From assembly GCA_017458195.1 (NCBI GenBank), contig JAFTGI010000122.1, positions 1 to 36,468 on the forward strand: a stretch of 36,468 bases of DNA, read 5' to 3'. The DNA is from Prevotella sp. GTDB taxonomy: Bacteria > Bacteroidota > Bacteroidia > Bacteroidales > Bacteroidaceae. The translations under genes and the position numbers were made by a program. A model generated the notes under the pieces. The model was given only the letters and a program-made list of their open reading frames with translations. It did not search any database and was not told where the DNA came from. This document shows positions 13,795-34,850 of this stretch, one piece after another. Position 1 is the first letter of the stretch; every line of letters starts with the position of its first letter.

Positions 13795-13890
13795 AAAAGC
13801 GGTACTTTTCTGCCAGAAAAGCGGTACTTTTCTCCTGGAAAAGCGGTACTTCTCTACCGGAAAAGCGGTACTTTTCTGGCAATGAAGTAC
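13795..13890 (+). repeat. 22-bp palindromic tandem array 1
   Basis: Four units with the core AAAAGCGGTACTTTTCT start at 13795, 13817, 13839 and 13861, exactly 22 bp apart; a decayed fifth slot begins near 13883 (GAAGTACTGCAAAG). Within each unit AGAAAAG and CTTTTCT (CTTCTCT in unit 3) are inverted repeats around CGGTA, so each can form a 7-bp hairpin. The 5-nt linkers vary between units while the core is nearly constant. The array lies between the glyA terminator and the pectate lyase start codon at 13913, so the pectate lyase leader probably contains some of it. Confidence 0.92.
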
Positions 13891-13912
13891 TGCAAAGAAA
13901 AAAATACAACGA

Positions 13913-15040
13913 ATGAAACGACTGACTTTAACATTCATCCTCACAGTTACGCTCATTGCCGTCAGCGCCACGGCACAGCGGCCAACCATGCGCTTTAAGA
14001 AACTGGCTTACCAGATGCCCACGAAGTGGTTTGCCACGGCTGAGGCTCAGGCCATTGCCGACACGGTTGTGAAATATCAGTTCCCATCGGGCGGATGGGC
14101 CAAGAACAACGACTGGAACCTGCCGGCCGATGAGGGCGGGAGGCTGAAGGCCCGTCAGGAAGTGTGGCAGCAGATCCACAGTGCCGACGGCGTGGGTGCC
14201 ACCATCGACAACGGCGCCACGACGAGCGAAATGCTCCTGCTGGCCAAGGTCTACGAAGCAACGGGGAAGAAAAAGTATCGCGAAGCCTTCATCCGCGGGC
14301 TCAACTATCTGCTCGAGGCGCAGTACGACAATGGCGGCTGGCCGCAATACTACCCCTTCAAACCGCTCAACAGCGAGGGGCATGCCTTCTATTCCAACCA
14401 CATCACGTTCAACGACAATGCCATGGTCAATGTGCTCACGATGATGCGCGAGGTCTATGAGGAGCGGACGTCATACTATAAAGCCCTCCGCATCCCCGAC
14501 AAGCTGAAGCAGCGTCTGCATGAGTCGTTCGACCGCGGCATCGAGTGCATCCTCAATTGTCAGATTCGCAAGGACGGACGGCTTACCGTCTGGTGCCAGC
14601 AGCACGACGAGAAGACCTTCGCCCCTGCTCCCGCCAGGAGCTATGAGCTGGCTTCGTTCACCGGCAGCCACGAGACGCCCAACATTCTCGAGCTGCTTAT
14701 GTCGCTGCCCAATCCGAGCGACCGCGTGGTCGAGGCTGTCACGGCGGCCGTGGAATGGCTCAAGGCACATGCCCTGAAGGATGTCCGTCTGGAGTCGTTC
14801 GTCAATGCCGAAGGACAGCGCGACCGTCGGCTGGTACATCATTTCGGAGCGACAACCTGGGCCCGCTACTATGACCTTGACACGGAGGAACCCTACGTCT
14901 GCGACCGCGACGGACGGCCGCAGCCCTCGCTGGAATATATCGGCCATGAGCGCCGCAACGGCTACGGATGGTATGGTGAGACGCCCCGTGAAATAATTGA
15001 GGCCTTCCCCGCTTGGCTCAGTCAGGTAAGGCCTCAATAA
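13913..15040 (+). CDS. secreted pectate lyase, family PL10
   Basis: Polysaccharide lyase that cleaves polygalacturonate by beta-elimination, yielding 4,5-unsaturated oligogalacturonides. A signal peptide covers residues 1-21 (ends ATA-Q). The rest, about 350 residues, matches a single PL10 catalytic domain: WAKNNDW (62-68), TIDNGATTSEM (97-107), QYDNGGWPQYYP (137-148), HITFNDNAMVNV (163-174) and the Arg-containing ARSYELAS (241-248). No carbohydrate-binding module is attached. The gene follows the repeat array with no recognisable -33/-7 pair, so its promoter is unclear. It converges on the GH105 gene, whose product would process unsaturated ends released by such lyases; stop codons are 8 nt apart. 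Confidence 0.92.
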   Translation: MKRLTLTFILTVTLIAVSATAQRPTMRFKKLAYQMPTKWFATAEAQAIADTVVKYQFPSGGWAKNNDWNLPADEGGRLKARQEVWQQIHSADGVGATIDNGATTSEMLLLAKVYEATGKKKYREAFIRGLNYLLEAQYDNGGWPQYYPFKPLNSEGHAFYSNHITFNDNAMVNVLTMMREVYEERTSYYKALRIPDKLKQRLHESFDRGIECILNCQIRKDGRLTVWCQQHDEKTFAPAPARSYELASFTGSHETPNILELLMSLPNPSDRVVEAVTAAVEWLKAHALKDVRLESFVNAEGQRDRRLVHHFGATTWARYYDLDTEEPYVCDRDGRPQPSLEYIGHERRNGYGWYGETPREIIEAFPAWLSQVRPQ

Positions 15041-15048
15041 TCAATCGC

Positions 15049-17373
15049 TCACCGGAGCGTCACTTGCAGCGGATGCTGCACCGAGCGTAGGGTCCACCCT
15101 ACCCGCTCGCGCCATTCCGCCATCGTCCTGACATCGTATTTCGACCAGGCCGACCCGAACAGATAGCTGTAGGGTTGGCCTTTATAATTGTCTACGATGC
15201 CGAGCGCATGGCCTTCGTTGCCGTCGCGGGGCTGGTCGAACAGTTTCTTTGTTGTCGATGTGACACCGTCGGGATAGAGCGTCGCCACGTAGAGCTGGCA
15301 GTTGTTCACGGCCACGTTGTCGGTCGGGTCGGCATAGACGACGTAGTTGCTCCCCAGCTCCACGCTCTCCTTGTCCTCAGAATGGAGCACGACGCCCGAA
15401 GCAAGCTGCTGCGGGGCCGTCAAGCCGTCGTACCAGACGGTCATGCGGTTGAAGTTGGAGCCCTTGTCAAGCTGGATGATACGGTGCTCGGTGACGCTGT
15501 CGCCCTTGACGGCCGTCGTGTTATAATCCAGCCGGACGCTGACACGCATAGGACCGAGGTCTAAGGTCTCATAGCTTTTAAAGCAATAGGGATACATCAG
15601 CTCGCCGTCGGTCATCAGCGCGGGTGTGCCGCAGCCCAGTGTGGCCCCCACCTTGTAGAGGTCCATGCCGCGCCCGTGATCGTTGTGATACGACGATTCG
15701 CGATAGAGCAGGTCGCCGGCGCGGCGGTCGGTCTTGCGCAGTTCGCGTGACCGCGGAATGTTAATGTCCTCGGTATGGTACCGATAGTCTATGACCAGCT
15801 CGGGCGTGTTCTTCGACCAGACGTCGAGACCGTAGCTGCGCTCGCCCGTCCGCTGCAGGGCTGGGCCATAGACGCGATAGGCGCCGCGGTCGTTCTCCCA
15901 GGCAAAGTCGTCCTTGCGCTCCGGCACGATGCGGCCATAGCACACAAAGGGGAACGTCTGGGGCGTGCCCTTGCGGAAGGTGAACGTGAGCTGACCGTTG
16001 GGGCGCACGCCTGCATCGAGCAGCACGTGACCGTCGTGGCTCAGCTGATAGGGCACCTCAAGACCGGCGCGGTCGAACACCTGGAACTGGCGGCCTCCCT
16101 GGATGCCAAGCTTCTGGAAGATGGCCTCTGCGTCGACCTCCACGACTTGCTGGCGGAATTCATTGCTCGGGTTACTCACTACTACTTCAACACCAGGCTC
16201 CTGCGAGGCGCCGTCGGCCTTCTCAGTCGAGGCGTCCTCATAGCGCAGATGTTCGCAGGCAGCCAGAAGGAACGCGCCCACACCGAAGTTGGCCTCGTTC
16301 TTGGCCGACAGCTGCTGACCAGGTATGGCGCGCTCGCCGATGGGCTGCACATAGCCCACGGCGCCGTCGGGCTGCAGGGCCGTCAGGGTCAGGTAGCGCC
16401 AGGCGCGCTGCATAGCAGGTTCGTAATCCTCGCGTGAGAGCAGACCGTGGTTAATGCCCCACAGCAGACCGTAGCAGAAGAAGGCGGTGCCGCTGGTTTC
16501 GGGGCCCTCGGCGTGGTCCTTGTCGAGCATCGAACGCGTCCAGTAGCCCTCGGGCTGCTGACAGCGGGCCACGGCTTCGGCCAGATGCTTGAAGCGTTGC
16601 TCAAAGAACGGGCGGTGCTCGTAGTCCTCGGGCATGTCGCTGAGCACCTTGGCCAGACCGGCCAGCACCCATCCGTCGCCGCGCGCCCAGAAGTCCTTGC
16701 CGCCGTTCTGCGTCTTGGCCTTGGGGTAGATGTACTTGGCATCGCGGAAATAGAGATGTTCCTCGGGGTCGAACATCAGCGAATCGGCAAAGCTGAAGTT
16801 CTGGTAAAGCTTATCCAGATACTTCACCTCGCCCGTCGTCTTATAGAGCTTGGCAAAGACGGGCATCACCATATAGAGTGCATCGGCCCACCACCAGAAG
16901 TCGGTCTCCGGCCGGCGCACCTCGTAGTCCATCACCTCCAGTGCCCGCTCAATCTTATACTTGTCGGGCGTCAGCTCGTAGAGGTCGAGGTAGGTCTGGA
17001 AGCAGATCTGCCAGTCGCCGAACAGCACGTAGTCCTGTCCCTCGCCGTAGCTCTTGTACTTCCATTTGGCAGGGTCTTGCTCCTGTGCGCCCATCCAGCG
17101 GTTGTGGCGGGCCCAGGCATCGCTGTAGGCGTGCCAGCGGGCATGGCCCAGCAGACGGTAGGCCTCCATGTTGCCCGTGTGGTAGGCGGCTTCGTCCCAG
17201 AACGAGCGCACTTGCGGGGAATGGGTCTGCTGCCAGTGGTCGTTCACCTTAGTGATAATCTCGATGGTCGGTGGCGCCACCGGCTCGGGACGTTTCTTGC
17301 GGGCACGTGCATCAACCGCAGTGCTTAGCGCCATGAGGAAGGCAGCCAGTAATACAAAACGTTTCTTACTCAT
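15049..17373 (-). CDS. GH105 unsaturated glycuronyl hydrolase fused to DUF4861
   Basis: Two-domain secreted protein of 774 residues. A signal peptide covers 1-22. Residues about 35-380 form an alpha/alpha-barrel of the GH88/GH105 type, hydrolases that remove 4,5-unsaturated uronic acids left by polysaccharide lyases; landmarks are WWWADALYM (160-168) with the probable catalytic Asp163, and FWARGDGWVL (228-237). Residues about 395-774 match DUF4861, a domain often found with pectin-degrading enzymes but of unproven activity. The domains are joined by a low-complexity linker (380-394). The gene starts 1 nt after the stop of the DPP-IV gene, so it is the last gene of that operon. Pectin-type substrates are inferred from family and from the neighbouring PL10 lyase. 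Confidence 0.9.
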   Translation of the reverse strand: MSKKRFVLLAAFLMALSTAVDARARKKRPEPVAPPTIEIITKVNDHWQQTHSPQVRSFWDEAAYHTGNMEAYRLLGHARWHAYSDAWARHNRWMGAQEQDPAKWKYKSYGEGQDYVLFGDWQICFQTYLDLYELTPDKYKIERALEVMDYEVRRPETDFWWWADALYMVMPVFAKLYKTTGEVKYLDKLYQNFSFADSLMFDPEEHLYFRDAKYIYPKAKTQNGGKDFWARGDGWVLAGLAKVLSDMPEDYEHRPFFEQRFKHLAEAVARCQQPEGYWTRSMLDKDHAEGPETSGTAFFCYGLLWGINHGLLSREDYEPAMQRAWRYLTLTALQPDGAVGYVQPIGERAIPGQQLSAKNEANFGVGAFLLAACEHLRYEDASTEKADGASQEPGVEVVVSNPSNEFRQQVVEVDAEAIFQKLGIQGGRQFQVFDRAGLEVPYQLSHDGHVLLDAGVRPNGQLTFTFRKGTPQTFPFVCYGRIVPERKDDFAWENDRGAYRVYGPALQRTGERSYGLDVWSKNTPELVIDYRYHTEDINIPRSRELRKTDRRAGDLLYRESSYHNDHGRGMDLYKVGATLGCGTPALMTDGELMYPYCFKSYETLDLGPMRVSVRLDYNTTAVKGDSVTEHRIIQLDKGSNFNRMTVWYDGLTAPQQLASGVVLHSEDKESVELGSNYVVYADPTDNVAVNNCQLYVATLYPDGVTSTTKKLFDQPRDGNEGHALGIVDNYKGQPYSYLFGSAWSKYDVRTMAEWRERVGWTLRSVQHPLQVTLR

Positions 17374-17374
17374 A

Positions 17375-19591
17375 TTACTTCAGGTTATCATTCAAGAAAT
17401 TCAGGCACTGGCGGAACAGATGGTTGCGAGTGTTGCCGCCGTAGATGCTGTGGTTGCGGTTGGTGTAGACGAGCTGACGGAAGTCCTTGTCGGCATCGAC
17501 GAGCGCGGTGACGTAGTCGGCCGTGTTCTGATAGTGCACATTGTCGTCAGCCAGACCATGGCAGAGCAACAGCTTGCCATGAAGCTTCGGCGCGCGGGCG
17601 ATAGGACAGACGTCGTCGTAGCCCGAGGCGTTCTCCTGCGGGGTGCGCATGTAGCGCTCCGTGTAGACGGAGTCATAGTAGCGCCAGTTGGTGGGCGGCG
17701 CAATGGCGATGCCGCAGCAGAAGACGTCGCGACCCTCAGACATCGACATCAGCGTGTTGAAGCCGCCATACGACCAGCCCCAAATGGCGATGCGGTCCTT
17801 GTCGACATAGGATTGCTTGGCCAGCCAGAGGGCAGTCTCCACCTGATCCTTCGACTCCAGGTCGCCCAGGCGCAAATAGACGGCCTTCTCAAACGCAGCA
17901 CCGCGACCACCGGTGCCACGGCCGTCGACACAAACGACCACGTAGCCCTGCTGAGCCATCAACTGCTCATGGATGGCGCCCTGGCCGTTCATGCCCACGC
18001 CCCAGGCGTTCTTCACCTGCTGATTGCCGGGACCGCCGTACTGATACATCACGACAGGATATTTCTTCGAGGCGTCGAATCCCACAGGACGTACAATCCA
18101 GCCGTTCAGCTGGATGCCCTCGCTGGTGGTGAACTTAAAGAGCTCCTTCTTACCCATGTCGTAGGAGGCATACTTGTCGGCCAGCGCCTTGTTGTCAATC
18201 ATGGTCTTCACGGCCTTGGCGCCCGCGCCGTAGAGTGTCACGACGGGCGGCGCCTGGAGATCGCTCCAAGTGCCGAGCCACGACTTGAAGTCGCGCGAGA
18301 AGACAGCCGTGTTCCAGCCGTCCTTCGGCGTCAGGCAGTCGGTCTTTCCGTTGCGGTGGCTGACGTAGACCTTCTGATTCATCGCGTCGGCTGAAAGGGC
18401 GGCAAAGTAGAGGTCACCCGTCGGCTCGTCGAGGCCATAGACGGCCGTGACCACCTGCTGCTTGACGGTGCGCTGCAGGGTGCCGTTGAGCGAATAGACA
18501 TAGATGCTGTTGAAGCCCGAGCGCTCACTGGTCAGCACGAGGTGCTGGTCGGTGATTAGGACGTCTTGGAAGACTTCTTCCTTGACGTACTTGTCAATCT
18601 TGTCCTCCACGACCTGCTGGCAGACGGTGGTCAAGGGGTTGGCCATGTAGATGCGCAGGCAGTCCTGATGGCGGTTCAGCGTGAACACGGCGATGCGCGT
18701 CGGGTCGCTGGTCGTCATGATGCGGGGGATGTAGCCGTCCTTGTCAAGCGGCAGCTGCATGGCGCGCGTCTGATGGCTCTTGATGTCGTAGCTCATCAGG
18801 CTGACCGTCGCGTTCTTCTCGCCAGGCTTGGGATACTTGTAGGAGTAAGTCCCCTCCATCCTTCCCCATGCGGGCGAGGCTTTCTGTGCGCCGGCCTTCC
18901 AGTCGAGCGGCGTCAGGGGCAGATAGCGCTCCAGCACCTCCGACTCGTCGTAGCGCACCCAGACAATCTGCTTCGAGTCGGCCGTGAACACCATGGCTCG
19001 GTTGTGCGAAAACTCCTCCTCGCACACCCAGTCGGGCACGCCGTTGAGAACCTTGTTGCGCTCGCCGTCCTTCGTCACCTGGCTTTCGGCGTTGCCATAG
19101 AGCAGCTTTACGAGGAAGATGTTATTGTCGCGCACGAAGGCAATCTGCTCACCGTCGGGGCTCCACAGCGGCGTCTGCTGAGGGCCGCCGTCGCTCAGGG
19201 GCTCCAGCGTGTTGTTGGCTATCGTATATATATAATAGGTGGCGGTGAATGAACGCCGGTAGATGCCTTTCGAGTCGGTCTGGATGAGCATCCGCTTGCC
19301 GTTGGGGCTCATGATGTAGCCCTCCACGCGGCCGACCTTCGGCCCTCGGGCGGTCGCGGCGTCGAACAGGACGCCGAGCTGCTTGCCCGTGCGGAAGGAA
19401 TAGCGCACCACCTGCTTGCCGTCGCCCGAGATCTGTGCGTAGCTCTCTCCGTCGTCAAGCGGTTGCAGGGCGGCCATCGATTCGCCGCGGAATGCACCAC
19501 TGGTAATCTCTTTCAAGTCAAGTTTTCCTCCGGCTGTCAGTTGGCCAAACGCCATGAGGCTGACCGCCAGGACTAACAAAATCTTTTTCAT
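17375..19591 (-). CDS. dipeptidyl peptidase IV-type serine peptidase (S9B)
   Basis: Periplasmic or exported prolyl dipeptidyl peptidase, releasing X-Pro or X-Ala dipeptides. Numbered from the ATG at 19600: a signal peptide lies at about 4-24; a beta-propeller (about 40-480) carries the N-terminus-binding Glu pair in DWVCEEEF (190-197), where a Cys replaces the usual Tyr; the alpha/beta hydrolase domain holds Ser610 in GWSYGG, Asp685 in GLADDNVH and His717 in NRNHSIYGG. All catalytic residues are present, and the length of about 740 is normal. The ATG at 19591 is preferred because the Lys-Lys of the signal peptide follows directly. It sits 13 nt after the EcsC gene and 1 nt before the GH105 gene. 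Prolyl tripeptidyl peptidase is an alternative specificity. Confidence 0.93.
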   Translation of the reverse strand: MKKILLVLAVSLMAFGQLTAGGKLDLKEITSGAFRGESMAALQPLDDGESYAQISGDGKQVVRYSFRTGKQLGVLFDAATARGPKVGRVEGYIMSPNGKRMLIQTDSKGIYRRSFTATYYIYTIANNTLEPLSDGGPQQTPLWSPDGEQIAFVRDNNIFLVKLLYGNAESQVTKDGERNKVLNGVPDWVCEEEFSHNRAMVFTADSKQIVWVRYDESEVLERYLPLTPLDWKAGAQKASPAWGRMEGTYSYKYPKPGEKNATVSLMSYDIKSHQTRAMQLPLDKDGYIPRIMTTSDPTRIAVFTLNRHQDCLRIYMANPLTTVCQQVVEDKIDKYVKEEVFQDVLITDQHLVLTSERSGFNSIYVYSLNGTLQRTVKQQVVTAVYGLDEPTGDLYFAALSADAMNQKVYVSHRNGKTDCLTPKDGWNTAVFSRDFKSWLGTWSDLQAPPVVTLYGAGAKAVKTMIDNKALADKYASYDMGKKELFKFTTSEGIQLNGWIVRPVGFDASKKYPVVMYQYGGPGNQQVKNAWGVGMNGQGAIHEQLMAQQGYVVVCVDGRGTGGRGAAFEKAVYLRLGDLESKDQVETALWLAKQSYVDKDRIAIWGWSYGGFNTLMSMSEGRDVFCCGIAIAPPTNWRYYDSVYTERYMRTPQENASGYDDVCPIARAPKLHGKLLLCHGLADDNVHYQNTADYVTALVDADKDFRQLVYTNRNHSIYGGNTRNHLFRQCLNFLNDNLK

Positions 19592-19604
19592 ATCTATCAT
19601 TTAG

Positions 19605-20369: not shown

Positions 20370-20378
20370 ATTATGCGG

Positions 20379-20386
20379 CAAAGTTA
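20379..20386 (-). promoter_or_regulatory. -7 box for the EcsC-peptidase-GH105 operon
   Basis: Minus-strand TAACTTTG fits TAnnTTTG exactly. No clear TTTG is found 20 nt upstream, where the sequence is AT-rich. With a start about 7 nt downstream the mRNA would be nearly leaderless with respect to the ATG at 20369. Confidence 0.6.
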
Positions 20387-20404
20387 AGAAAAACTATTGA
20401 AAAA

Positions 20405-20436
20405 TTTGCATAACTCAAAAAAAATGTGTTACTTTG
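20405..20436 (+). promoter_or_regulatory. promoter of the outer-membrane barrel gene
   Basis: TTTG at 20405-20408 and TTACTTTG at 20429-20436 are separated by 20 nt. The -7 element has one mismatch to TAnnTTTG. The leader to the ATG at 20481 is about 38 nt. Confidence 0.7.
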
Positions 20437-20480
20437 CATCGGAAATTCGTAAACATTAACTAATAAACAACAATTGAATT

Positions 20481-21098
20481 ATGAAAAAGATTCTTGTGGG
20501 CATCATGGCTGTGCTGTTCTCAGCTCCCTCGTTCGCTCAGTATAGCAGCGGCGGTTTCTCACTCAGTGAGAGCACTCTCTACTACGGTATCCGTCTTGGC
20601 GTGAACTTCAGTTCTATTACCGGCGACTACATCGACCTGGGAACCCGCACGGGCATGAACCTTGGTGCCGTCATCGGCGCACGCGTGAGCGACTCCACCC
20701 CGATTTTCCTTGAGAGTGGTCTTTACTTCGAGAGCAAGGGCGCTAAGAAAGATAAGCTGTCGATGGGCCTGAACTACCTGGAGCTCCCCATTCTTATCAA
20801 GTACGGCGTGCAGGTGAGCGACGACATCGCCCTGCTTCCCTATGTCGGTCCATACTTTGCCTATGGCCTCGGTGGTAAGTATAAGTATAACAGCGACAAG
20901 GTCGTTGTCAAGGATAGCTCCTATGACTACATGAAGCACTTCGACATGGGCTTCAAGATCGGCTGCGGTGCTGAGTACAATAAGCTCTATGCCGAGCTGG
21001 GCTACGAGTTTGGCGTGGTCAACATTGCCAAGGACAACCCCCAGGATCTCGGTGCCCACAACGGCGCATTCTACTTCAACGTCGGTGTGAACTTCTAA
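20481..21098 (+). CDS. small outer-membrane beta-barrel protein
   Basis: Probable eight-stranded outer-membrane barrel of the PorT/OmpW-like OMP_b-brl class, 205 residues. A signal peptide covers 1-19 (ends SFA-Q). The mature part alternates hydrophobic and polar residues in strand-length blocks, with Gly and aromatic residues at strand ends, for example LYYGIRLGVNFSSITG, LNYLELPILIKYG, LYAELGYEFGVVNI, and ends in a final strand GAFYFNVGVNF with the C-terminal Phe typical of barrel proteins recognised by the BAM complex. Function unknown; such proteins may be structural or sensory. It is transcribed alone and is followed 12 nt later by repeat array 2. Confidence 0.85.
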   Translation: MKKILVGIMAVLFSAPSFAQYSSGGFSLSESTLYYGIRLGVNFSSITGDYIDLGTRTGMNLGAVIGARVSDSTPIFLESGLYFESKGAKKDKLSMGLNYLELPILIKYGVQVSDDIALLPYVGPYFAYGLGGKYKYNSDKVVVKDSSYDYMKHFDMGFKIGCGAEYNKLYAELGYEFGVVNIAKDNPQDLGAHNGAFYFNVGVNF

Positions 21099-21109
21099 GC
21101 AATCAATAG

Positions 21110-21280
21110 AAAAGCGGTACTTTTCCCTGAGAGAAGTACCGCTTTTCTCTGACTAAAGCGGTGCTTTTCTCCCAGAGAAGTACCGCTTTTCTGTAAGTAA
21201 AGTACCGCTTTTCTGTTCAAGAAGTGCCGCTTCTTGATACCAATATAGGGGTATATTGGTCTTGAGAAGTGCCGCTTTTA
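21110..21280. repeat. 22-bp palindromic tandem array 2, mixed orientation
   Basis: Eight slots at 22-bp pitch fill the gap between two convergent genes. Slot starts are 21110 (forward core AAAAGCGGTACTTTTCC), 21132 (inverted), 21154 (forward), 21176, 21198 and 21220 (inverted), 21242 (unrelated sequence) and 21265 (inverted). Neighbouring forward and inverted units can pair over 15 bp or more. Slot 7 is replaced by a different palindrome and adds one base to the pitch. The last unit ends against the stop codon of the carboxypeptidase gene. The core is the same as in arrays 1 and 3. Confidence 0.9.
21239..21260. repeat. 9-bp hairpin inside array 2
   Basis: ACCAATATA (21239-21247) and TATATTGGT (21252-21260) are a perfect inverted repeat around GGGG. 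It occupies the slot of one 22-bp unit without sharing its sequence. Confidence 0.8.
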
Positions 21281-22438
21281 TCAGCGACAAAGCTCGACAC
21301 ACAGTCGGTCGATCAGCTCACGACCCTCGGCGGCCCGCATGACGCCCTGGACGATGACGGCGAAGCAGAGACGATGGCCATCCGAGGCCGTCAGATAGCC
21401 AGCCAGCGAGGTGATGCCCGTCAGGGTGCCCGTCTTCGCCTGTACGTTGCTCTCGGCTGGTGTGCCGGTCATGCGCTTCTTCAGTGTACCGTCCTGTCCG
21501 GCCACCGGCAGCGTGGGCAGCAGATGGCTGTAGATGCGATTGTCGAACCATGCATAGCGCAGCAACATCGTCAGCGCCTCGGCTGAAAGATAGTTATAGA
21601 GCGACAATCCGCTGCCGTCGGCAATGCGATAGTTCTGTGGCAGCAGTCCTGCCCTCGACATCACGCCACGTTCCAGCTTGCGGGCTTCCTTGGCTGTTGC
21701 CGGACGCTGTCCAGAACGGATGGCCGTCTGATAAAACATCGACTCGGCGTAGAGGTTGTTGCTCTCCTTCATCATCTCGAGCATCACCTGGTCGATGGTG
21801 TGCGTACGGGCACAAACAAATGCGGAGCCGCCCGGCAGGCGCCCCTTGGCGGTTGAAACATTCACCAGCACCGCCCCACCCCTCTGCAGGGCTGCAGCGA
21901 ACTGCTCGGCAAAGTCGAGTCGGCGCCCGATGCGCAGCGGTGTCAATACGGGGTTGTCGTCGTCCCAACACCATCCCTCACCATAGCGCAGCGTGTCCTT
22001 CACCGACAGATCGCTGACAATGCGCCCCCTGATGGTATCGATGCCCAGCCGGCGCACATTGGCCACGAAGGCCTCCATGTCGTCAGCGTCGAACATCGGA
22101 TCCATGCCGCCGACGACGTAGAGGTCGCCCTGGAGCGTGCGGTTGCTGACAGTGCCCCTATAATATAAAGAGGTGGAAAAGGTGTAGTCAACGCCGAGCT
22201 GGTCGAGAGCTGCGACGGCCGTCAGCACCTTCATCGTCGAGGCGGGGCGCAACAGCTGCTGTGCCTGATAATTGAACATGGGCTGGTCGGCCGTGAGGTC
22301 CCACACCAGCATGCCTATCTGGGCCGTCTGTGCCAAGGGGGAAGCCGTGAAGACAGAGTCTAACCGATGTCTCACATCCTGAGCCATCAGCGACGCCGCG
22401 AAGGCCATCAGCACGAGGAAAACTGATAATTTCTTCAT
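21281..22438 (-). CDS. dacB: D-alanyl-D-alanine carboxypeptidase / endopeptidase, PBP4 type (S13)
   Basis: Periplasmic penicillin-binding protein that trims or opens peptidoglycan cross-links. About 385 residues from the ATG at 22438. A signal peptide covers about 1-19. The three active-site motifs are SxxK as STMK with nucleophile Ser67 and Lys70, SxN as SNN (226-228), and KTG (335-337, KTGTLTG). It is shorter than E. coli PBP4 (about 477 residues), the difference lying between the SxxK and SxN motifs, so the extra domains are reduced. A GTG start at 22447 would lie inside the -7 box and is rejected. Divergent from nadB; its 3' end abuts repeat array 2. Confidence 0.92.
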   Translation of the reverse strand: MKKLSVFLVLMAFAASLMAQDVRHRLDSVFTASPLAQTAQIGMLVWDLTADQPMFNYQAQQLLRPASTMKVLTAVAALDQLGVDYTFSTSLYYRGTVSNRTLQGDLYVVGGMDPMFDADDMEAFVANVRRLGIDTIRGRIVSDLSVKDTLRYGEGWCWDDDNPVLTPLRIGRRLDFAEQFAAALQRGGAVLVNVSTAKGRLPGGSAFVCARTHTIDQVMLEMMKESNNLYAESMFYQTAIRSGQRPATAKEARKLERGVMSRAGLLPQNYRIADGSGLSLYNYLSAEALTMLLRYAWFDNRIYSHLLPTLPVAGQDGTLKKRMTGTPAESNVQAKTGTLTGITSLAGYLTASDGHRLCFAVIVQGVMRAAEGRELIDRLCVELCR

Positions 22439-22446
22439 AATTGCCA

Positions 22447-22454
22447 CAAAGGTA
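22447..22454 (-). promoter_or_regulatory. -7 box of dacB
   Basis: Minus-strand TACCTTTG fits TAnnTTTG. A -33 TTTG at the usual distance is not evident. Transcription would begin within a few bases of the ATG at 22438, so the mRNA is nearly leaderless. Confidence 0.6.
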
Positions 22455-22497
22455 CAAAAAAATCTTCATTCATAATTCATAATTCATAATTATTTTG

Positions 22498-22505: not shown

Positions 22506-22525
22506 CCACGTAATTAGCTAAAACT

Positions 22526-27779: not shown

Positions 27780-27786
27780 TTTAGAG

Positions 27787-27796
27787 AGAAAGGAGA
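27787..27796 (+). promoter_or_regulatory. extended Shine-Dalgarno sequence of the susD-like gene
   Basis: AGAAAGGAGA lies 7 nt before the ATG at 27804 in the 24-nt gap after the susC-like gene. It matches 9 of 10 bases of the expected anti-Shine-Dalgarno complement and is the same decamer as before the DnaJ-like gene. It may lift SusD-like translation relative to the receptor. Confidence 0.75.
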
Positions 27797-27803
27797 CAAG
27801 ATT

Positions 27804-29789
27804 ATGAACAAGAATCATTTCAGACAATATCTTACAAGTGCAGCCGCTACTGCCTCGCTTTTCTGCTTGCTGACGACGTCGTGCAGCGACGACTATCTCG
27901 ACGTGGTGCCCGTGAACGACATCACCACCATTGAGAGTATGTTCGAGAAGCGCGTGGATGCCGAGCAGTGGCTGCAGACCTGCTACGTCTTCATGACCAT
28001 CTATGCTGCTGAGGAGCTGCACAACCCTGCCTACCTTGGAGCCGACGAGTTCTGTGGCGGCGACTATATCCGCAAGAACGAAGAAGAATATGCCGAGGCT
28101 CTCGGCATCGGCGACGGTCTGCAGGGCTCCAATGCACCGCTCTGCAACGTGTGGCACAAGAACCGCTACTTCGCTGCCCTGCGTTATTGCAACATCTTCC
28201 TCGACAACATCATGAATGTCTATAACATGCAGGACAACGAGAAGAAGCTGTGGCGGGCTGAGGTGCAAGCTGTCAAGGCCTTCTACTATTTCGACATGAT
28301 GCGCCGTTATGGTCCCATCATCCTTGTGAACCACAACATCGCGACCAACGAGTCGATGGAAGACATGCAGCAGCCGCGCCGGCCGATAACTGAGGTGGTC
28401 GACACCATCGTCAGCCTTTGTGATCAGGCTATGCCCTACCTGCCGCACCGCTACGAGAAGTCAGCTGACCGTATCGCCTACTTCAACAAGGAGGCCTGCG
28501 CCACGCTGAAGGCCCTCACCCTGCTCTATGCCGCCTCGCCCCTGTTCAATGGAGCCCAGGCATTTGCCAAGATGACCAACAAGAACGGCGAACTGCTCTT
28601 CCCCACCTACGACAAGGAGCGCTGGCATCGCGCTGCCATTGCTGCCGACGAGGCCATCCAGATTGCCCGCGAAGGCGGCATCGATATCTACTCCGGCACG
28701 CTCGACCAGCCGACGGCACTGCTCAACACCATCTGGGACTGCGAGTACCCCTGGGCTGGCGGTAAGCCCAATGGCTGGAGCAACACCGAGGCCATCATGA
28801 CGATTCGTCCGTCGTGGAGCGACCGCAAGTCGTCGTGGCCCGGCCAGCCCTTCGACTTCATGACGATGGTCTATTGCCAGACCGGTGAATATACCACACT
28901 GAGCCGCGGCTGCTTAGGTGCACCGATGAACATGGTAGAGATGTACTACACTGACCATGGACTGCCAATCGATGATGACAAGGCTTGGATGCCCAACAAG
29001 TATGCCATGAGCAAGGAGAACGACCAGCGCTATCGCAACGTGCTGCCCATGAATCAGGATGTGCTCAACCTGCACCGTCATCGCGAGCCCCGCTTCTATG
29101 CCAGCATCGGCGGCGACCGCATGATGTGGTACAGGTTCGACGATCAGGTCTATTACATGAACGGCATCCTGATGCAGAACCGCCGTGGCGAATGGGCCGG
29201 CACACTGGCACGACGTATCGACGAGAACACGCCGCAGTGCATCACGGGCTATTGGATCATCAAGAACTCACAACCAAAAACTCAGTTGGGCTGGTATTGC
29301 TACAACGGAACCGGCATGCCGCATATCACCATGCGATTCCCCGAGCTGCTCCTTGCGTCAGCTGAAGCCTGGAACGAATATCTGGACGAACCCGATGAGC
29401 GTGTCTACGGTCCGCTCGACCAGGTGCGCAAGCGTGCCGGCATCCTGCCCGTGCGCGATGCGTGGACCAGCTACTCGAAGACTCCAGACAAGTGTCGTAC
29501 TCAGGTCGGTATGCGAGAGATTATCCAGCGGGAATGGAACATTGAGTTTGCCTTTGAGGGTCGCCGCTTCTGGAACGTGCGCCGATGGATGACCGCACCG
29601 CAGGAACTGAACTCCCCGCAGTACGGCTGGAACATTCTGGCTGACGACCAGGACGGATTCTACTGCAACTACCAGGGACCGCGCGTTGTCTGGAAGAAGC
29701 GCAACTTCACGGCTCCACGTGACTACTTCTTCCCCATCCGCGCTGAGGAGATCCTGATCTCAGGCGTGAAGCAGAACCTGGGATGGTAG
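27804..29789 (+). CDS. SusD/RagB-type surface lipoprotein
   Basis: Outer-leaflet lipoprotein that binds substrate and closes over the SusC-like channel. 661 residues. The lipoprotein signal peptide ends at LTTSC with the lipidated Cys27, followed by SDDYLDVVP; the acidic residues after Cys are typical of surface export in Bacteroidetes. The N-terminal part has the TPR-like helices of the family (for example RAEVQAVKAFYYFDMMRRYG), and the C-terminal part contains the signature REIIQREWNIEFAFEGRRFW followed by an R-W-rich end. It is somewhat longer than the average SusD (about 550). It is 24 nt downstream of the receptor gene and 49 nt upstream of the next lipoprotein. Confidence 0.95.
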   Translation: MNKNHFRQYLTSAAATASLFCLLTTSCSDDYLDVVPVNDITTIESMFEKRVDAEQWLQTCYVFMTIYAAEELHNPAYLGADEFCGGDYIRKNEEEYAEALGIGDGLQGSNAPLCNVWHKNRYFAALRYCNIFLDNIMNVYNMQDNEKKLWRAEVQAVKAFYYFDMMRRYGPIILVNHNIATNESMEDMQQPRRPITEVVDTIVSLCDQAMPYLPHRYEKSADRIAYFNKEACATLKALTLLYAASPLFNGAQAFAKMTNKNGELLFPTYDKERWHRAAIAADEAIQIAREGGIDIYSGTLDQPTALLNTIWDCEYPWAGGKPNGWSNTEAIMTIRPSWSDRKSSWPGQPFDFMTMVYCQTGEYTTLSRGCLGAPMNMVEMYYTDHGLPIDDDKAWMPNKYAMSKENDQRYRNVLPMNQDVLNLHRHREPRFYASIGGDRMMWYRFDDQVYYMNGILMQNRRGEWAGTLARRIDENTPQCITGYWIIKNSQPKTQLGWYCYNGTGMPHITMRFPELLLASAEAWNEYLDEPDERVYGPLDQVRKRAGILPVRDAWTSYSKTPDKCRTQVGMREIIQREWNIEFAFEGRRFWNVRRWMTAPQELNSPQYGWNILADDQDGFYCNYQGPRVVWKKRNFTAPRDYFFPIRAEEILISGVKQNLGW

Positions 29790-29838
29790 ACTTGACACAG
29801 TGAAAAGTGAATAGAGAATAACATAAAAGATTAAGATC

Positions 29839-31227
29839 ATGAAACTAAGATATTTATTGTTCGCACTGATGGCCTGCGCCCTTTGGAGCTGCTCGGACGA
29901 TGAAGAAACGTTCGAATCGGGCCTCACCCCGAATGCGTTCAGCTTCAAGCCGGTCACGGGTGGTGCCATCATGTACTATCAATTGCCCGATGATCCTGAA
30001 GTGACGGGGCTATACGTGCGCTATAACGATGCCTTCGGACAGCCCGTGACGCGCTCGGCCAGTACAGCCAACGACTCGCTCCTCCTGACGGGCTTCAACG
30101 AAGCAAAGAGCAACGTACCCGCCCAGGTGTACGTCCAGCGGCGCGACCGCACCGAGTCGACCCCTATCCCCGTCAGCTTCAGCACCGAGGACTCCGGCCC
30201 CGTGGCGTTCATGAAGTCAGTACAGGTGCTGAGCAACTGGGAGGGCTTTACCCTGATGTACAGCACGCCTGATTTCAGCGAGGGTCTGGTAAACGTATTC
30301 TATCTCGGTGTGGATCCTCAGACGGGTGGCCCCGACACTGTGCTCATCAGCAGCTTCACGCTTGAAGATGCCACCGTTGACGAGACTATCAACTTCAAGG
30401 TTAAGCAGCAGGTGGATAAGCCAACCGTCATTCTCCGTACCGAGGACTTCCGCGGTAATCGTATCTCAGAGAAGTCTTTCGAAGGAGTGGAGTTTCTGGA
30501 GCAGGCCATGATGCCGTCGTCGGAATTCGATTTCTACTGTGCAGTGGCCATGGAAGAAGAATATGAATATTCCGGAAGCAACTATTATTTTCATCAGCAT
30601 ATCGGTCCTGATGTGCTGTTCGACGGCGACATCCTTGGGGCAAAGGCTATTGAATACAATGGTCTCAGCACGTTTGTTGCTGGCCCCAATGCCTGTGGCC
30701 CCGATCCGTTCCCTATGTACATCGATTGTCGCAAAGAACGCACCATTGCAGGCGTGCGCATGTATAACGCCCTCTATGCCGACTGCACTCAGCAGGACTA
30801 CCAATGGAACGGCTCATGGGGACACGCCGTGATGATGCCCTGCGACGTGACGCTCTATGCGGCCTATGACGACGGCGACACCACGCCGTTGGCGGAAAAG
30901 AACATGGAAGCTCTCGACTGGAAGCGCGTCTCATTCTTCTATCAGGATCCCGACCTGGCCAATGCGGCCCGCTGGTGTCCCTGGACCTTCCCCAATGCAG
31001 GATGGGAAGCCGGCTTCACCACCGTTGAGGAAATGGAGGCCCATGGGCCTGAGTACATGGAGATGGTGGTCTCGGCTGCCGGTCAGGGCAACGGCTACCG
31101 CTATATGAAAATTGTGGTGAATAACACGTTCAATGCAGCTGGCGATCCATGGATTGCCGGGGATTGTCACAACGACGCCCACATGATTACGTTCACCGAA
31201 CTTGAAGTTTACACCAAAAAAGACTGA
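29839..31227 (+). CDS. DUF4959/DUF5126/DUF5000-type surface lipoprotein
   Basis: Lipoprotein of 462 residues often found directly after SusC/SusD pairs. The signal peptide ends ALWSC with Cys18, followed by SDDEE, an acidic surface-export signal. By recall of family features, about 30-110 matches DUF4959 (GAIMYYQLPDDPEVTGLYV), about 120-215 DUF5126 (NWEGFTLMYSTPD...), both fibronectin-like beta folds, and about 240-460 a discoidin-like DUF5000 domain ending with ITFTELEVY. The C-terminal domain is a candidate carbohydrate-binding module, so the protein probably acts as a surface glycan-binding protein. Domain boundaries are approximate. Five nt separate it from the next gene. Confidence 0.8.
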   Translation: MKLRYLLFALMACALWSCSDDEETFESGLTPNAFSFKPVTGGAIMYYQLPDDPEVTGLYVRYNDAFGQPVTRSASTANDSLLLTGFNEAKSNVPAQVYVQRRDRTESTPIPVSFSTEDSGPVAFMKSVQVLSNWEGFTLMYSTPDFSEGLVNVFYLGVDPQTGGPDTVLISSFTLEDATVDETINFKVKQQVDKPTVILRTEDFRGNRISEKSFEGVEFLEQAMMPSSEFDFYCAVAMEEEYEYSGSNYYFHQHIGPDVLFDGDILGAKAIEYNGLSTFVAGPNACGPDPFPMYIDCRKERTIAGVRMYNALYADCTQQDYQWNGSWGHAVMMPCDVTLYAAYDDGDTTPLAEKNMEALDWKRVSFFYQDPDLANAARWCPWTFPNAGWEAGFTTVEEMEAHGPEYMEMVVSAAGQGNGYRYMKIVVNNTFNAAGDPWIAGDCHNDAHMITFTELEVYTKKD

Positions 31228-31232
31228 CGATT

Positions 31233-32750
31233 ATGAAGACAATCTGCAAAATAACGGCAATGCTGGCCGTGGCCCTGCTTATGGTGAGCTGCGGTGAAAG
31301 CTTGGAGGACACTTACAAGGACTACTCCGGCGACGGTACTTCCATCCGCTACACCGGCCGCTGTCGTAACATCAGCGTGACAGGTGGCTGGCAGCGCATG
31401 GTGCTCAACTGGACCAACAACGTTGATCCGATCATCAAGAATGTGAAGATCGTGTGGAAGTATGAGGATGAAGCTGACTCGGTCTATCTGCCCGCAGGTA
31501 CCACCGAGTACAGCATCGACCACATCGGCAGCGAGCCTCTGGGCGACCGCAGCTTCGAGATCACTATCTGCTCTGTCAGCGAGCAGGGCGTGGAGTCGCT
31601 GTCGAATACGGTGTACGGGCGCCCCTACACCTATACCCATGAGGAGGTGCAGGCTTTCAACCGCCTGGTGTCGTCGGCCTACAAGATCCGCGACCGCGTG
31701 ATCCTCACCTTCCTTCCCTGGCAGGAGGGCATCAGTGCGGCCCACCTGACCTACACCAAGAAAGATGGTTCGCAGGGCTATCTTGAGCTGACACCCGAGC
31801 AGGTGGCCATGAATTATTACATGTTGGAGGATGAGGTTGACAACGACAAGCCCATCGTAGTCCACCGGACGGCCAAGCTCGAAACCTGTGTGGACGAGAT
31901 CGAATTCCTTCCCTACGAGTTCGACGACACCCGCATCTTCAACTCTGACTTCCTTGAGGACCTGCGCCGTCAGTTTGGTTTTGAAGAAATTCCTGAGGAC
32001 TGGATTGAAAGGCAGACTGTGCTCTATCTCGATGCCTTGAGCTACAACTCGTTCATCGACCTGCTGAACTTTCCCAACCTTAAGAAGGTGGTGTTAGGTT
32101 CACGCCGCTACTTCCCCGAATCGGAGGTCGATGATGAGGAGTATGCCCAGGACATCGTTATGGACGTCGAGGAGAGCAACTTCGCCCTGCAGGTGCTTCA
32201 CGAGCTGAACGGCCTGACTGTTGAGCGCTACAACAATCATTTCCCGCAGCTGGAGGTGAAAGACTTCTTCACGGAGAAAGGCCAGCCCGTAGAGCCCAAG
32301 AAGCGCCTTATCGACCTGACCGGCAAGACGTTCAAAGTTTCGCCCGAGGACGAGATGGGATTCAACTCGCACCTGCCCAACCTGACCGACGGCGACCCAA
32401 GCACCTTCTGGCAGCCACGACTGACGGGTGAGGCCTACCAGTATGAGCTCTCCATCGACCTGGGCGAGGTGAAGGCCGTCAGCGGTGTGAAGATTGTGCA
32501 GCGCATGTGGGAGAACGAGCAGGAGCACATGGTGGCCCCCAAGTCATGCCGGGTGCTGCTCTCTGAAAACGGAGCCGAATGGGGCTACGCTACCTATCTG
32601 GAAAGCTATCCCCTCGGTGCAGCCAACGGCGAGGTGAACTACATCGACTTCCCCTTCACCTTCGGCGCGCGCTACGTCATGGTCGTAGTCCCCTCGGGCT
32701 TCTACTTTACTCTGAACTTCACTTCAATTGCAGAAATCTCTCTCTACTAA
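31233..32750 (+). CDS. DUF4998 / F5/8 type C (discoidin-like) surface lipoprotein
   Basis: Second accessory lipoprotein, 505 residues. The signal peptide ends LMVSC with Cys20. Residues about 25-225 match the DUF4998 type (DTYKDYSGDG then two beta domains with VLNWTNN). A middle region (about 230-345) is a Leu-rich helical or mixed segment containing LDALSYNSFIDLLNFPNLKKV. The C terminus (about 360-505) is a discoidin-like domain, with NLTDGDPSTFWQP, ELSIDLGEVKAVSGVKI and the ending FTSIAEISLY, a common sugar-binding fold. It is the last structural gene of the locus; a GC-rich terminator hairpin follows. Confidence 0.8.
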   Translation: MKTICKITAMLAVALLMVSCGESLEDTYKDYSGDGTSIRYTGRCRNISVTGGWQRMVLNWTNNVDPIIKNVKIVWKYEDEADSVYLPAGTTEYSIDHIGSEPLGDRSFEITICSVSEQGVESLSNTVYGRPYTYTHEEVQAFNRLVSSAYKIRDRVILTFLPWQEGISAAHLTYTKKDGSQGYLELTPEQVAMNYYMLEDEVDNDKPIVVHRTAKLETCVDEIEFLPYEFDDTRIFNSDFLEDLRRQFGFEEIPEDWIERQTVLYLDALSYNSFIDLLNFPNLKKVVLGSRRYFPESEVDDEEYAQDIVMDVEESNFALQVLHELNGLTVERYNNHFPQLEVKDFFTEKGQPVEPKKRLIDLTGKTFKVSPEDEMGFNSHLPNLTDGDPSTFWQPRLTGEAYQYELSIDLGEVKAVSGVKIVQRMWENEQEHMVAPKSCRVLLSENGAEWGYATYLESYPLGAANGEVNYIDFPFTFGARYVMVVVPSGFYFTLNFTSIAEISLY

Positions 32751-32828
32751 ATTAGCATTGACAGTTTTAACCATTAACAACATTGATGTGAAGCACATGG
32801 ATTCCCCATCATCTGCAACGTGGGAATC

Positions 32829-32855
32829 GGGAGGGGGCAGCGGCCTCCTCCCTTT
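32829..32855 (+). terminator. terminator after the surface lipoprotein genes
   Basis: A 9-bp GC-rich stem GGGAGGGGG / CCTCCTCCC with one G-U pair (32829-32837 with 32844-32852) and a 6-nt loop is followed by TTT. It lies about 80 nt after the stop codon and before the -7 box of the sigma factor gene, so the four structural genes and the two regulators are probably separate transcripts. Confidence 0.6.
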
Positions 32856-32917
32856 CCTGCATTTATGATGAAACAAAAAAAGTCGGCAAGTAAAGCTGTT
32901 ATTTGAAAAATAATGAT

Positions 32918-32925
32918 TACTTTTG
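32918..32925 (+). promoter_or_regulatory. -7 box of the ECF sigma gene
   Basis: TACTTTTG fits TAnnTTTG and lies 42 nt before the sigma factor ATG. A TTTG is present at 32902-32905 but only 12 nt away, so the -33 element is not convincing. Confidence 0.55.
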
Positions 32926-32967
32926 TCGGCGGAAACGTGACTTAATAAAGAATAACTCCCAAACGCG

Positions 32968-33465
32968 ATGAACAAGAAACAGGACTTCGAGCGGTTCTAC
33001 CGTGAGCATTACAACGCGCTCTTCTACTACGCCATGCGCTTAGTGGACGACACGGAGGCCTGTCGTGACATCGTTGGGGAGGCACTGGAGCAGACTTGGG
33101 CAAGAATTGAGCAGATTGAGCCATCGAAGCTAAAGAACTTCACCTACTCGCTGATCCACCACAAATGCGTCGACCACCTGCGCCACATGGTCGCAGCCAA
33201 CCGCTACGTTGCGTTCTACATGCAGCTCTATTCCCGGCAGGTCGACGACGACGAATGGCAGGAACATGAGCAACTGATCAGCAGTGTCACGGATCTGCTC
33301 ACCCGGCTGTCACCGCGCACCCGATACGTGCTGGAGCAATGCTACTTCCACCATAAGCGCTATGCTGAAGTGGCCGAAGATATGGGCATCAGCGTCAGCG
33401 GCGTCAAGAAGCACATCGTCACGGCATTGAAACAGCTGAGGGCCGAATTGGCTAAAAAATCCTAA
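32968..33465 (+). CDS. ECF-type RNA polymerase sigma factor
   Basis: Extracytoplasmic-function sigma-70 factor of the FecI-like group, 165 residues. Region 2 spans about 5-75 (FYREHYNALFYYAMRLV, then the DNA-melting segment with FTYSLIHHKCVDHLR). Region 4 spans about 110-160 (LSPRTRYVLEQCYFHHKRYAEVAEDMGISVSGVKKHIVTALKQL), with a helix-turn-helix. It is cytoplasmic and held inactive by the FecR-like protein encoded just downstream. By analogy with known Bacteroides systems, ligand import by the STN-bearing receptor should release it to transcribe the susC-like operon. Its position after rather than before the receptor genes is less common. Confidence 0.93.
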   Translation: MNKKQDFERFYREHYNALFYYAMRLVDDTEACRDIVGEALEQTWARIEQIEPSKLKNFTYSLIHHKCVDHLRHMVAANRYVAFYMQLYSRQVDDDEWQEHEQLISSVTDLLTRLSPRTRYVLEQCYFHHKRYAEVAEDMGISVSGVKKHIVTALKQLRAELAKKS

Positions 33466-33495
33466 TATGTGAAGGACATAAGTATACTAACCAAG

Positions 33496-34731
33496 ATGAA
33501 AAACGATATAATTAACAGAATGACAACCAAAGACGATTATCATAAGAACACAGAAGAACAACTGCTCGAACAGTTGGTGGACATCATGGACGAGGGCCAT
33601 GAGCTCACCGACGACGAGATGGCCCGGCTGGCTGGCAACGAGGAGGCTATCAGAGCCTACCGACAGATGGCTGCGCTGAAGCATGTTGTCGGGACACCCG
33701 AGCCGGAATCGTCTGCGCCGAGTGAACATTTAAACGCCAACGGCGTGGAATCGGCTGCGCCGAGTGAACATGAATCGGCTTCACCGAGCGGACGTTTGTT
33801 TAATGTTCACGCGCTGCCGGCGCTCTTGGCTATAGCCGCCGCCATCCTGGCCTTGGTCATATTCACACATCCTTGGAGTACGACGATAACAGAAACGGCA
33901 GAAGGATCGGGTAGCCTCATGGCATACGAGCATACAGAGAAGCCCGACGGCATCATCCTGAAGACAAGCGAGGAGCGGCCGATTGACCTGACGGCAAAGA
34001 GAAGCCGGGTGACGCGAGCCCGACTGACCAACAACAAGGGACAACTGGTGCTCGACTATCAGACTTCCTCCGGAAACAGCTACAGCATCAGCCACCCCGT
34101 GCAGACTGACACCATCGACGTGCCCTGCGGCAACGACTTCAAACTCATTCTGGCCGACGGCACCGAGGTGTGGCTATATGCTGACTCCAGGCTTATATAT
34201 CCGGCACAGTTCGTGGGCGACGAGCGTCGCGTGTTCCTCGAGGGTGAGGCCTATTTCCGGGTCACGAAGGATGCTGACCATCCCTTCATCGTAAGCACCG
34301 ACCGCATGGAGGCCCGTGTGCTGGGCACAGAGCTTAACGTGAACAGCCGCGAAAACCATGTGGCGCTGATTAACGGCAGCGTTGAGGTGAAGGGTATAGG
34401 AATCGACGGCGTCCAGCGCCTTATTCCCGGTCAGGGGGCATCGCTCATCGATGGGCGTCGCCTGCTGGTGGAGCAGGAGAATATGGACACCTACGTCTAT
34501 TGGCGCAACGGCTACATCTTTTTCGATGACAATTCGGTGAGGGATATTGCCCAGCAGCTCGGCCGGTGGTTCAACGTCAGCGTGGAAATCTCAAGTGAGC
34601 GGCTGGCAGCCATGCGCCTGCATTTCCTCTACAAGCGGAGCGACAGTATGAAGCGCATCCTGGCCTTGCTGAACAGTTTTGGAGAGTTCAACGCTGTCAT
34701 CAAGAATAATACACTCGTCATTCGGGAATAG
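33496..34731 (+). CDS. FecR-family anti-sigma factor
   Basis: Inner-membrane anti-sigma factor, about 411 residues from this start. The cytoplasmic N-terminal part (about 1-100) would bind the ECF sigma factor; it includes a Ser/Pro/Glu-rich segment with near repeats of SAPSEH. A single membrane helix lies at about 107-124 (LPALLAIAAAILALVIF). The periplasmic FecR domain spans about 209-291 (DFKLILADGTEVWLYADSRL...). A DUF4974 domain closes the protein (about 336-411), the part that contacts the STN domain of the receptor. The start is uncertain: a GTG at 33469 (3 nt after the sigma stop) and an ATG at 33520 are alternatives; the ATG at 33496 is the first ATG. Repeat array 3 begins 7 nt after the stop. 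Confidence 0.9.
   Translation: MKNDIINRMTTKDDYHKNTEEQLLEQLVDIMDEGHELTDDEMARLAGNEEAIRAYRQMAALKHVVGTPEPESSAPSEHLNANGVESAAPSEHESASPSGRLFNVHALPALLAIAAAILALVIFTHPWSTTITETAEGSGSLMAYEHTEKPDGIILKTSEERPIDLTAKRSRVTRARLTNNKGQLVLDYQTSSGNSYSISHPVQTDTIDVPCGNDFKLILADGTEVWLYADSRLIYPAQFVGDERRVFLEGEAYFRVTKDADHPFIVSTDRMEARVLGTELNVNSRENHVALINGSVEVKGIGIDGVQRLIPGQGASLIDGRRLLVEQENMDTYVYWRNGYIFFDDNSVRDIAQQLGRWFNVSVEISSERLAAMRLHFLYKRSDSMKRILALLNSFGEFNAVIKNNTLVIRE
33705..33795 (+). repeat. degenerate in-frame tandem repeats within the anti-sigma gene
   Basis: GGAATCGTCTGCGCCGAGTG (33705-33724) recurs nearly unchanged at 33747-33766, both followed by AACAT, and a weaker third copy starts at 33772. They encode the SAPSEH-like repeats just before the membrane helix. 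Confidence 0.75.
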
Positions 34732-34737
34732 TTTGAG

Positions 34738-34845
34738 AAAAGCGGTACTTTTCTCATAGAAAAGCGGTACTTTACTGGCAGAAAAGCGGTACTTTTCTCA
34801 TAGAAAAGCGGTACTTTACTCCGAGTAAAGCACCGCTTTTCTTTA
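34738..34845. repeat. 22-bp palindromic tandem array 3
   Basis: Units with the core AAAAGCGGTACTTT start at 34738, 34760, 34782 and 34804, exactly 22 bp apart; a fifth slot at 34826 is inverted (AAAGCACCGCTTTTCT). Units 1 and 3 carry CTTTTCT while units 2 and 4 carry CTTTACT, so the array has an alternating 44-bp super-repeat. It fills the gap between the convergent fecR-like and alaS genes. Confidence 0.92.
34803..34841. terminator. bidirectional hairpin formed by the last two units of array 3
   Basis: Unit 4 (34803-34821) and the inverted unit 5 (34823-34841) form a 19-bp stem with one mismatch and a minimal loop. T-rich tails follow on both strands (CTTTTCTTT on plus, CTTTTCTATG on minus), so it can end transcription from both convergent genes. 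Confidence 0.65.
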
Positions 34846-34850
34846 GTGAC

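Follow-up and report, generated by a model that had tools for sequence, protein, structure and literature searches.

The contig JAFTGI010000122.1 of the Prevotella sp. draft genome GCA_017458195.1 was analyzed over its full 36,468 nucleotides (contig C212, hereafter the window). The draft, referred to as the source genome, comprises 3.19 Mb in 238 contigs and is 76% complete. Three intergenic gaps of the window hold arrays of a short palindromic unit, at the places where an initial annotation, made from the letters of the window, had put them. The core of the unit is AAAG-CGGTA-CTTT, 13 bp with palindromic arms and an asymmetric centre, and it is repeated at a pitch of 22 bp in either orientation. 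A search with AAAAGCGGTACTTTT, allowing up to 3 mismatches, gave 17 matches in the window against 0.36 expected from shuffles, and 16 of the 17 were inside the three arrays. The 17th match (24118, minus strand, 3 mismatches) looks like chance. All steps between units were 22 bp except the last step of array 2, which was 45 bp (22+23) and spanned an AT-rich hairpin. The unit starts thus agree with the 22-bp pitch and the single 23-bp slot described earlier, and the pitch was unchanged where units are inverted.

Each array lies behind a plus-strand stop, and the genes on either side of arrays 2 and 3 converge, as the initial annotation had stated. Array 1 is flanked by co-directional genes and begins 93 nt past the stop at 13699; the next gene starts at 13913 according to the list of open reading frames (ORFs), or at 13988 according to our home-made gene caller. 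Array 2 lies in a convergent gap of 182 bp, behind the plus-strand stop at 21098. Array 3 occupies 107 of the 119 bp of the convergent gap 34732-34850, behind the stop at 34731. The coordinates are given in Table 1.

Table 1. Features of the window, with unit starts of the three arrays
Feature	Coordinates	Strand	Details
Array 1	13793..13876	+	four units, all plus: 13795, 13817, 13839, 13861
Array 2	21108..21281	mixed (+ - + - - - -)	seven units: 21110, 21132, 21154, 21176, 21198, 21220, 21265
Array 3	34736..34843	+ + + + -	five units: 34738, 34760, 34782, 34804, 34826
Possible decayed fifth unit in the register of array 1	13883..13897	-	by eye, unscored
Ordinary intrinsic terminator between gene and array 1	about 13722..13773	+	hairpin of about -24.8 kcal/mol and T run
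AT-rich hairpin CCAATATAGGGGTATATTGG in one slot of array 2	21240..21259	none
tRNA-Arg (ACG)	9014-9088	-

The window arrays are not the only copies in the genome. The core, with up to 2 mismatches, gave 78+78 matches genome-wide against 8+2 for the reversed pattern, and the source genome contains at least 25 arrays. These 25 arrays of at least three units were found in 26 fetched pieces plus the window, and 19 of them have four or five units. The 27 pieces (210 kb) held 97 strict units, with 58 pairs at 22 bp, while 30 Markov resamples of the same pieces gave a mean of 1.4 units and zero pairs. Since the pieces cover 58 of the 64 strict two-unit pairs of the genome, a few arrays lie outside them. 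The observation is real and larger than first stated. An AT-rich hairpin, AATATAGGGGTATATT or its complement, was seen beside units in four source-genome loci (the window, L037 on C40, L039 on C65 and L051 on C186).

We also examined how far the unit is spread in the genus, the family and the phylum. Among 200 genomes of the genus, the core with up to 1 mismatch was common in just the source genome (44+45) and one other, G188 (49+55); all others had at most 5+5. When the centre was left free, the pair AAAG-N5-CTTT at 22 bp was present in 112 of 398 genus genomes, the source genome included, with counts of up to 526, and the reversed control was mostly near zero. Each rich genome has its own typical centre, such as CGGCT, CTATG, TTGAA or GTTAT. 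Genome G344 was left out of the rich genomes, having 143 matches to the reversed control against 154 to the pattern, which suggests some other repeat-rich sequence there. The uncultured Prevotellaceae genome RUG12472 gave 373 relaxed pairs and none in the control. A relaxed three-unit pattern was found in 23 of 301 family genomes, in 7 of 30 genera including that of the source, although several of these genomes have one or two matches, which may be chance. Outside the genus, G589, G602, G621 and G645 had 5 to 20 three-unit matches each. The strict three-unit pattern was found in 2 of 395 genomes over the phylum, both of the source genus, and in 0 of 390 outside the family, in a search that is insensitive (2 of 5 within the family).

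Distances between units were determined in the pieces of seven genomes. All strict-unit distances of 5-70 bp were 22, 44 or 66 bp, with one exception of 26 bp; the non-source pieces in this count had been selected with a 22-bp pattern, and the source pieces had not. Therefore, a search with free spacing (arm spacing 3-7, linker 0-24) was made in 150 genomes. Thirteen of the 18 genomes with at least 20 pairs at the fixed 22-bp distance gained less than 18% under free spacing. In RUG12472, 56 pairs were at 22 bp, 1 at 23, 3 at 24 and 1 at 31. Free spacing also revealed a second pitch. Genome G022 went from 0 pairs at 22 bp to 87, and its pitch is 21 bp among the matches listed (49 of 171, on 9 contigs; L237). 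Genome G040 went from 0 to 16 pairs, and a pitch of 21 bp was also seen at the single locus fetched (L235, L240). The pitch thus appears to be constant within a species, at close to two turns of the helix, and G022 and G040 provide a natural test of the pitch rule, with 21 instead of 22 bp.

The conservation of cores and linkers was compared next. Sequence logos showed that AAG and CTT are the most conserved positions in each genome, mostly above 1.3 bits and often near 2, that the centre differs between genomes and that information in the middle of the linker is low. Some linkers recur in the source genome and in G188. Among the RUG12472 linkers, 59 of 61 were distinct, and linker identity between arrays was 0.29, close to random; the commonest array length in this genome is four units (13 of 22 arrays). 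Linkers as scrambled as these would be expected to carry more insertions or deletions if the pitch were only a relic of copying. At one orthologous locus, L044 of the source genome and L223 of RUG12472, the same four units were present with the same order of orientations and the same spacing, with no insertion or deletion. Identity at this single locus was 45/52 (87%) in the cores and 10/27 (37%) in the linkers, and 46/60 in a 60-nt flank.

The position of 105 arrays from eight genomes relative to genes was then analyzed with the home-made caller, which was checked by eye against the ORF list on the window and on which gap classes and distances depend. Forty-three arrays were in convergent gaps, 38 in co-directional gaps and 19 in divergent gaps, 3 bordered the end of a piece and 2 fell within called genes; three of the 105 are pieces of one RUG12472 locus (L220). 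In seven genomes, convergent gaps held 35 of 80 placed arrays and made up 70 of 328 gaps of at least 80 bp, a background taken from the same pieces, array gaps included, most of which had been chosen in the other genomes for holding arrays. Of the 38 co-directional arrays, 32 were nearer to the upstream stop. The source-genome arrays with a neighbouring stop were, in 20 of 22 cases, within 32 nt of it or overlapped it. The arrays of G188 in convergent gaps are part of a larger element, and for most of them the nearest stops were some 100-200 nt away. Source arrays in divergent gaps were found at L041, L047 and L055, of which L041 and L047 have units in a single orientation; RUG12472 has no array at the places matching L041 and L047.

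A position behind genes is also what bidirectional intrinsic terminators acting as RNA would take. Here units in opposite orientation, or the AAAAG/CTTTT arms of units in the same orientation, would pair in the transcript, T-rich tracts would follow on both strands and several units would offer several chances to terminate. Tandem RNA hairpins at mRNA 3' ends had been proposed for the window, and the position and folding of the arrays fit them in the source genome. There, 29 of 33 array-facing 3' ends had a hairpin of -12 kcal/mol or lower with a T-rich tail, compared with 5 of 33 controls, although any palindrome folds, which makes the test circular in part. An independent terminator ahead of the array was present at 3 of the 33 ends, and several source arrays fill their convergent gaps, with hardly any space left for other elements. 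Terminator-like hairpins were found at 12 of 20 array-facing 3' ends in RUG12472 (controls, 37 of 127), and in genome G084, 8 of the 10 listed two-unit elements were perfect inverted pairs. The excess was weaker in G188 (9 of 25 versus 17 of 88 controls), where a terminator already lay ahead of the array in 4 of 25 cases, and array 1 of the window likewise sits behind a real terminator. It is not apparent what a hairpin loop would gain from a fixed pitch of 22 or 21 bp. The two orientations were not seen together in 9 of 25 source arrays and 8 of 22 RUG12472 arrays, some units of which could not be oriented. RNA fold z-scores (about -5 for the source genome and RUG12472, and -6.7 for G188) were set aside, since any palindrome beats its shuffle.

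Covariation between the arms was used as a further measure of RNA pairing. In RUG12472, no compensatory change was found at the position pairs 0/12, -2/14 and -3/15, and A-C clashes at 0/12 numbered 19 against 17.9 expected. Several outer pairs were negative in G188, where covariation is affected by copying. The arms thus show no general compensation beyond the core, of the kind that RNA hairpins would call for, although some single pairs co-vary (see below), and 19 arrays lie in divergent gaps; the proposal of mRNA 3'-end hairpins is supported by position and folding and weakened by these two points. Because these compensation results meet terminator-like hairpins at array-facing 3' ends, the RNA terminator is a close rival of the reading preferred below, and we regard it as possible but rather unlikely.

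The turnover of the arrays was investigated by comparing ten gaps of the source genome with RUG12472. Six had arrays in both genomes (L033, L035, L043, L044, L053 and window array 3), and the RUG12472 gap orthologous to window array 3 also holds units in register; the RUG12472 pieces for L033, L043 and L044 had been picked for their arrays, and no such choice had been made for the pieces of L035, L053 and window array 3. The four gaps without a shared array were L041 and L047 (divergent), L049 (broken synteny) and L052 (one side unmatched). Clear conservation of unit order was seen at L044 only; L033, L035 and L043 differ, as judged by eye.

In G188, the array forms the centre of a miniature inverted-repeat transposable element (MITE) of about 325 bp whose inverted ends read GCTGTCCGCTAAA (L176:7913-8240, copies L312-L341), and a direct repeat GAATTTTCYTTACAT flanks the array on both sides. 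Forty main matches to the element were scored from 171 candidates, and 21 of the 40 start at the same query base. Thirteen distinct copies of 324-386 bp have paired GCTGTCCGCTAAA ends, which are the terminal repeats expected of a MITE. The source arrays lack such ends: 6 short flank matches were found among the 25 arrays, and GCTGTCCGCTAAA was absent from the 27 source pieces at up to 1 mismatch.

These data bear on a second rival, in which the arrays are selfish repeats of the repetitive extragenic palindrome (REP) or MITE kind without host function, copied and tolerated behind genes, with the pitch as a fossil of a founding array. The families are dispersed and species-typical, the G188 array is the core of a MITE, and the flanks of one pair of arrays in G343 and of one pair in G502 are alike over 186 and 138 bp, respectively. 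The absence of arrays at the compared G188 loci and the repeated linkers of the source genome point the same way. Flank matches were few and short, however, among the arrays of the source genome, of G677 and, one split locus aside, of RUG12472. The near-random linkers of RUG12472 beside kept pitch and cores, the conservation of cores over linkers in one orthologous array and the recurrence of the same layout with different dialects in several genera also argue against purely selfish repeats. The Y1 (RAYT) transposase was rejected as the mover, since its domain PF01797 was present in 9 of 21 genomes with at least 20 pairs and in 102 of 179 others. The earlier suggestion of a REP-like mobile element is therefore borne out in the dispersal of the arrays, their MITE-borne form in G188 and their absence at compared G188 loci, and is weakened by the lack of a positive Y1 link and by some positions common to RUG12472. 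Selfish repeats without function appear to us an unlikely explanation, though a serious rival.

Two further candidates were rejected. A DNA uptake sequence would occur as scattered single copies, but of 89 places with 0-1 mismatch only about two (C136 and C186) were outside arrays, by eye. The linkers of 9 bp and the palindromic unit are unlike the long unique spacers of an array of clustered regularly interspaced short palindromic repeats (CRISPR).

The reading that we tentatively prefer, and hold to be the most likely mechanism though with somewhat less than even confidence, is that proteins bind the arrays side by side, in phase on one face of the double helix, and thereby mark transcription-unit boundaries. 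The site would be the palindrome AAG-N5-CTT with a species-typical centre, read by a putative dimeric DNA-binding protein with which the centre may co-evolve. In a row of often four or five sites, two helical turns apart, the bound proteins would align and touch on one face. Such a row at the end of a transcription unit, behind the stop and often between convergent genes, would form a boundary, and as a roadblock this boundary could stop or keep apart transcription arriving from the two sides, regardless of the orientation of single units. The observed unit, pitch, species-typical centres, 3'-end bias and conservation of cores over linkers in one orthologous array are consistent with this mechanism. 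Side-by-side protein binding had been suggested for the window, and the pitch, nearly constant at 22 or 21 bp despite changing linkers, centres and orientation, agrees with it.

Several results weigh against the protein-row reading. No binding protein was found; an Lrp/AsnC octamer was guessed from the 110-bp length, but its domain was present in 197 of 200 genomes and was uninformative. Nineteen of the 105 arrays lie in divergent gaps, and RNA could act where arrays fold into terminator-like hairpins, as they do at 29 of the 33 source 3' ends. Some covariation was also positive: in RUG12472 at the pair -1/13 (z 5.3) and, across the linker, at 13/21 (z 4.9), slightly in the source genome at -2/14 (z 2.6) and, with four genomes pooled, at the inner pair 4/8 (z 3.7). 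The pitch rule was less strict in genomes with larger gains under free spacing (G144 28%, G044 33%, G047 43%, G060 69% and G125 131%), and in RUG12472 a further 8 pairs stand 45 or 46 bp apart. G125 owes its gain to its many N6 units, in which one arm still holds the 22-bp register, by eye, and the single locus seen of G047 runs at 22 bp. No array was present in G188 at three compared source loci (L043, L034 and L037). The source linkers repeat (62 distinct of 94), and copying could also fix the pitch; because linkers two units apart were more alike than neighbours (0.68 versus 0.57), source arrays seem to grow locally, in the manner that 44-bp duplications would produce.

The arrays were also sought outside cellular genomes and in existing collections. 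In a viral collection, 71 stretches had the two-unit pattern, a count for which the chance level was not computed, and a third unit-like neighbour was present in 14 of 76 pair matches. By eye, the viral stretches L242, L257 and L287/L311 look like true arrays; the last two belong to IMGVR_UViG_2558860931_000002, which has two four-unit arrays with the centre CATAG (L287 6507-6585 and L311 6883-6961). The array-like rows of these contigs may be prophage or host flanks. Plasmids gave zero matches to the G188 element or to array 3. A search of Rfam gave just a tRNA in the window and no family in 20 loci of the source and other genomes. No description of the layout, with its fixed pitch and its species dialects, was met in open-licence full text, outside which most subscription papers lie.

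REP sequences and bacterial interspersed mosaic elements (BIMEs) of enterobacteria and Pseudomonas are short dispersed palindromes in mixed orientation, mostly at gene 3' ends. The arrays resemble them as dispersed intergenic palindromes, with 2 of 105 inside called genes, and differ in having no positive Y1/RAYT link, a strict two-turn pitch, rows of often 4-5 units and centres that change with the species. Bidirectional intrinsic terminators have a 3'-end place, T-rich tails and hairpins on both strands, all of which the arrays share. In contrast to such terminators, the arrays have many units at a fixed pitch, and they occur also behind a true terminator and in divergent gaps.

The initial annotation knew of no described element with this core. 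This holds for the core and dialect strings searched, whose four hits appear to be human or mouse papers, but PINSR of Prevotella intermedia is probably one dialect of the arrays, likened here by description and not letter by letter. PINSR is described as an intergenic repeat with a consensus of 188 bp (Fig. 4A of the paper), present 177 times in one strain and 184 times in another, probably non-coding, without inverted ends and of unknown function, about three quarters of its regions being common to both strains; it is apparently absent from other Prevotella clades (PMC4755523). Section 3.4 of that paper describes no unit, pitch or palindrome, unlike the arrays (PMC4755523). The match is to the elements of G146, G132, G348 and G124, which have in common a stretch of about 250-290 bp with five 22-bp slots in it. 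The assemblies of G146 and G132 each consist of two contigs, and P. intermedia was reported with two circular chromosomes (PMC4755523). A more far-reaching reading, which we consider doubtful, is that the arrays are a family-wide class of DNA boundaries. Exact two-turn rows of dimer sites would be bound by a protein of the lineage that differs between species in the centre it recognizes, and these protein rows, in place of RNA hairpins, would close or insulate transcription units; PINSR and the MITE of G188 would be two dialects of this class that chanced to spread. Should a protein read the arrays, the DNA of Prevotella and its kin would carry a dispersed code, bound to a constant spacing and written in species dialects, with up to several hundred unit pairs per genome at transcription-unit ends. 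Marking or closing transcription units in this manner would be new, and the bacteria concerned are common in gut, rumen and mouth. Even as mere repeats, the arrays may explain PINSR and would offer a natural series, constant in layout and changing in letters, on the origin and upkeep of intergenic repeats in bacteria.

BrickBuilt of Porphyromonas gingivalis, also of the Bacteroidales, was compared as well. Its unit AGAYCATARTATCCTCTCRTRTG is unrelated to the array unit by inspection (PMC4596501). The BrickBuilt ends resemble those of IS5-family ISPg elements (PMC4596501), whereas the source arrays showed no shared flanks or inverted ends. The likeness is one of construction and concerns G188, since BrickBuilt is a tandem repeat of similar unit length (23 nt) carried inside a MITE (PMC4596501), just as the G188 array is.

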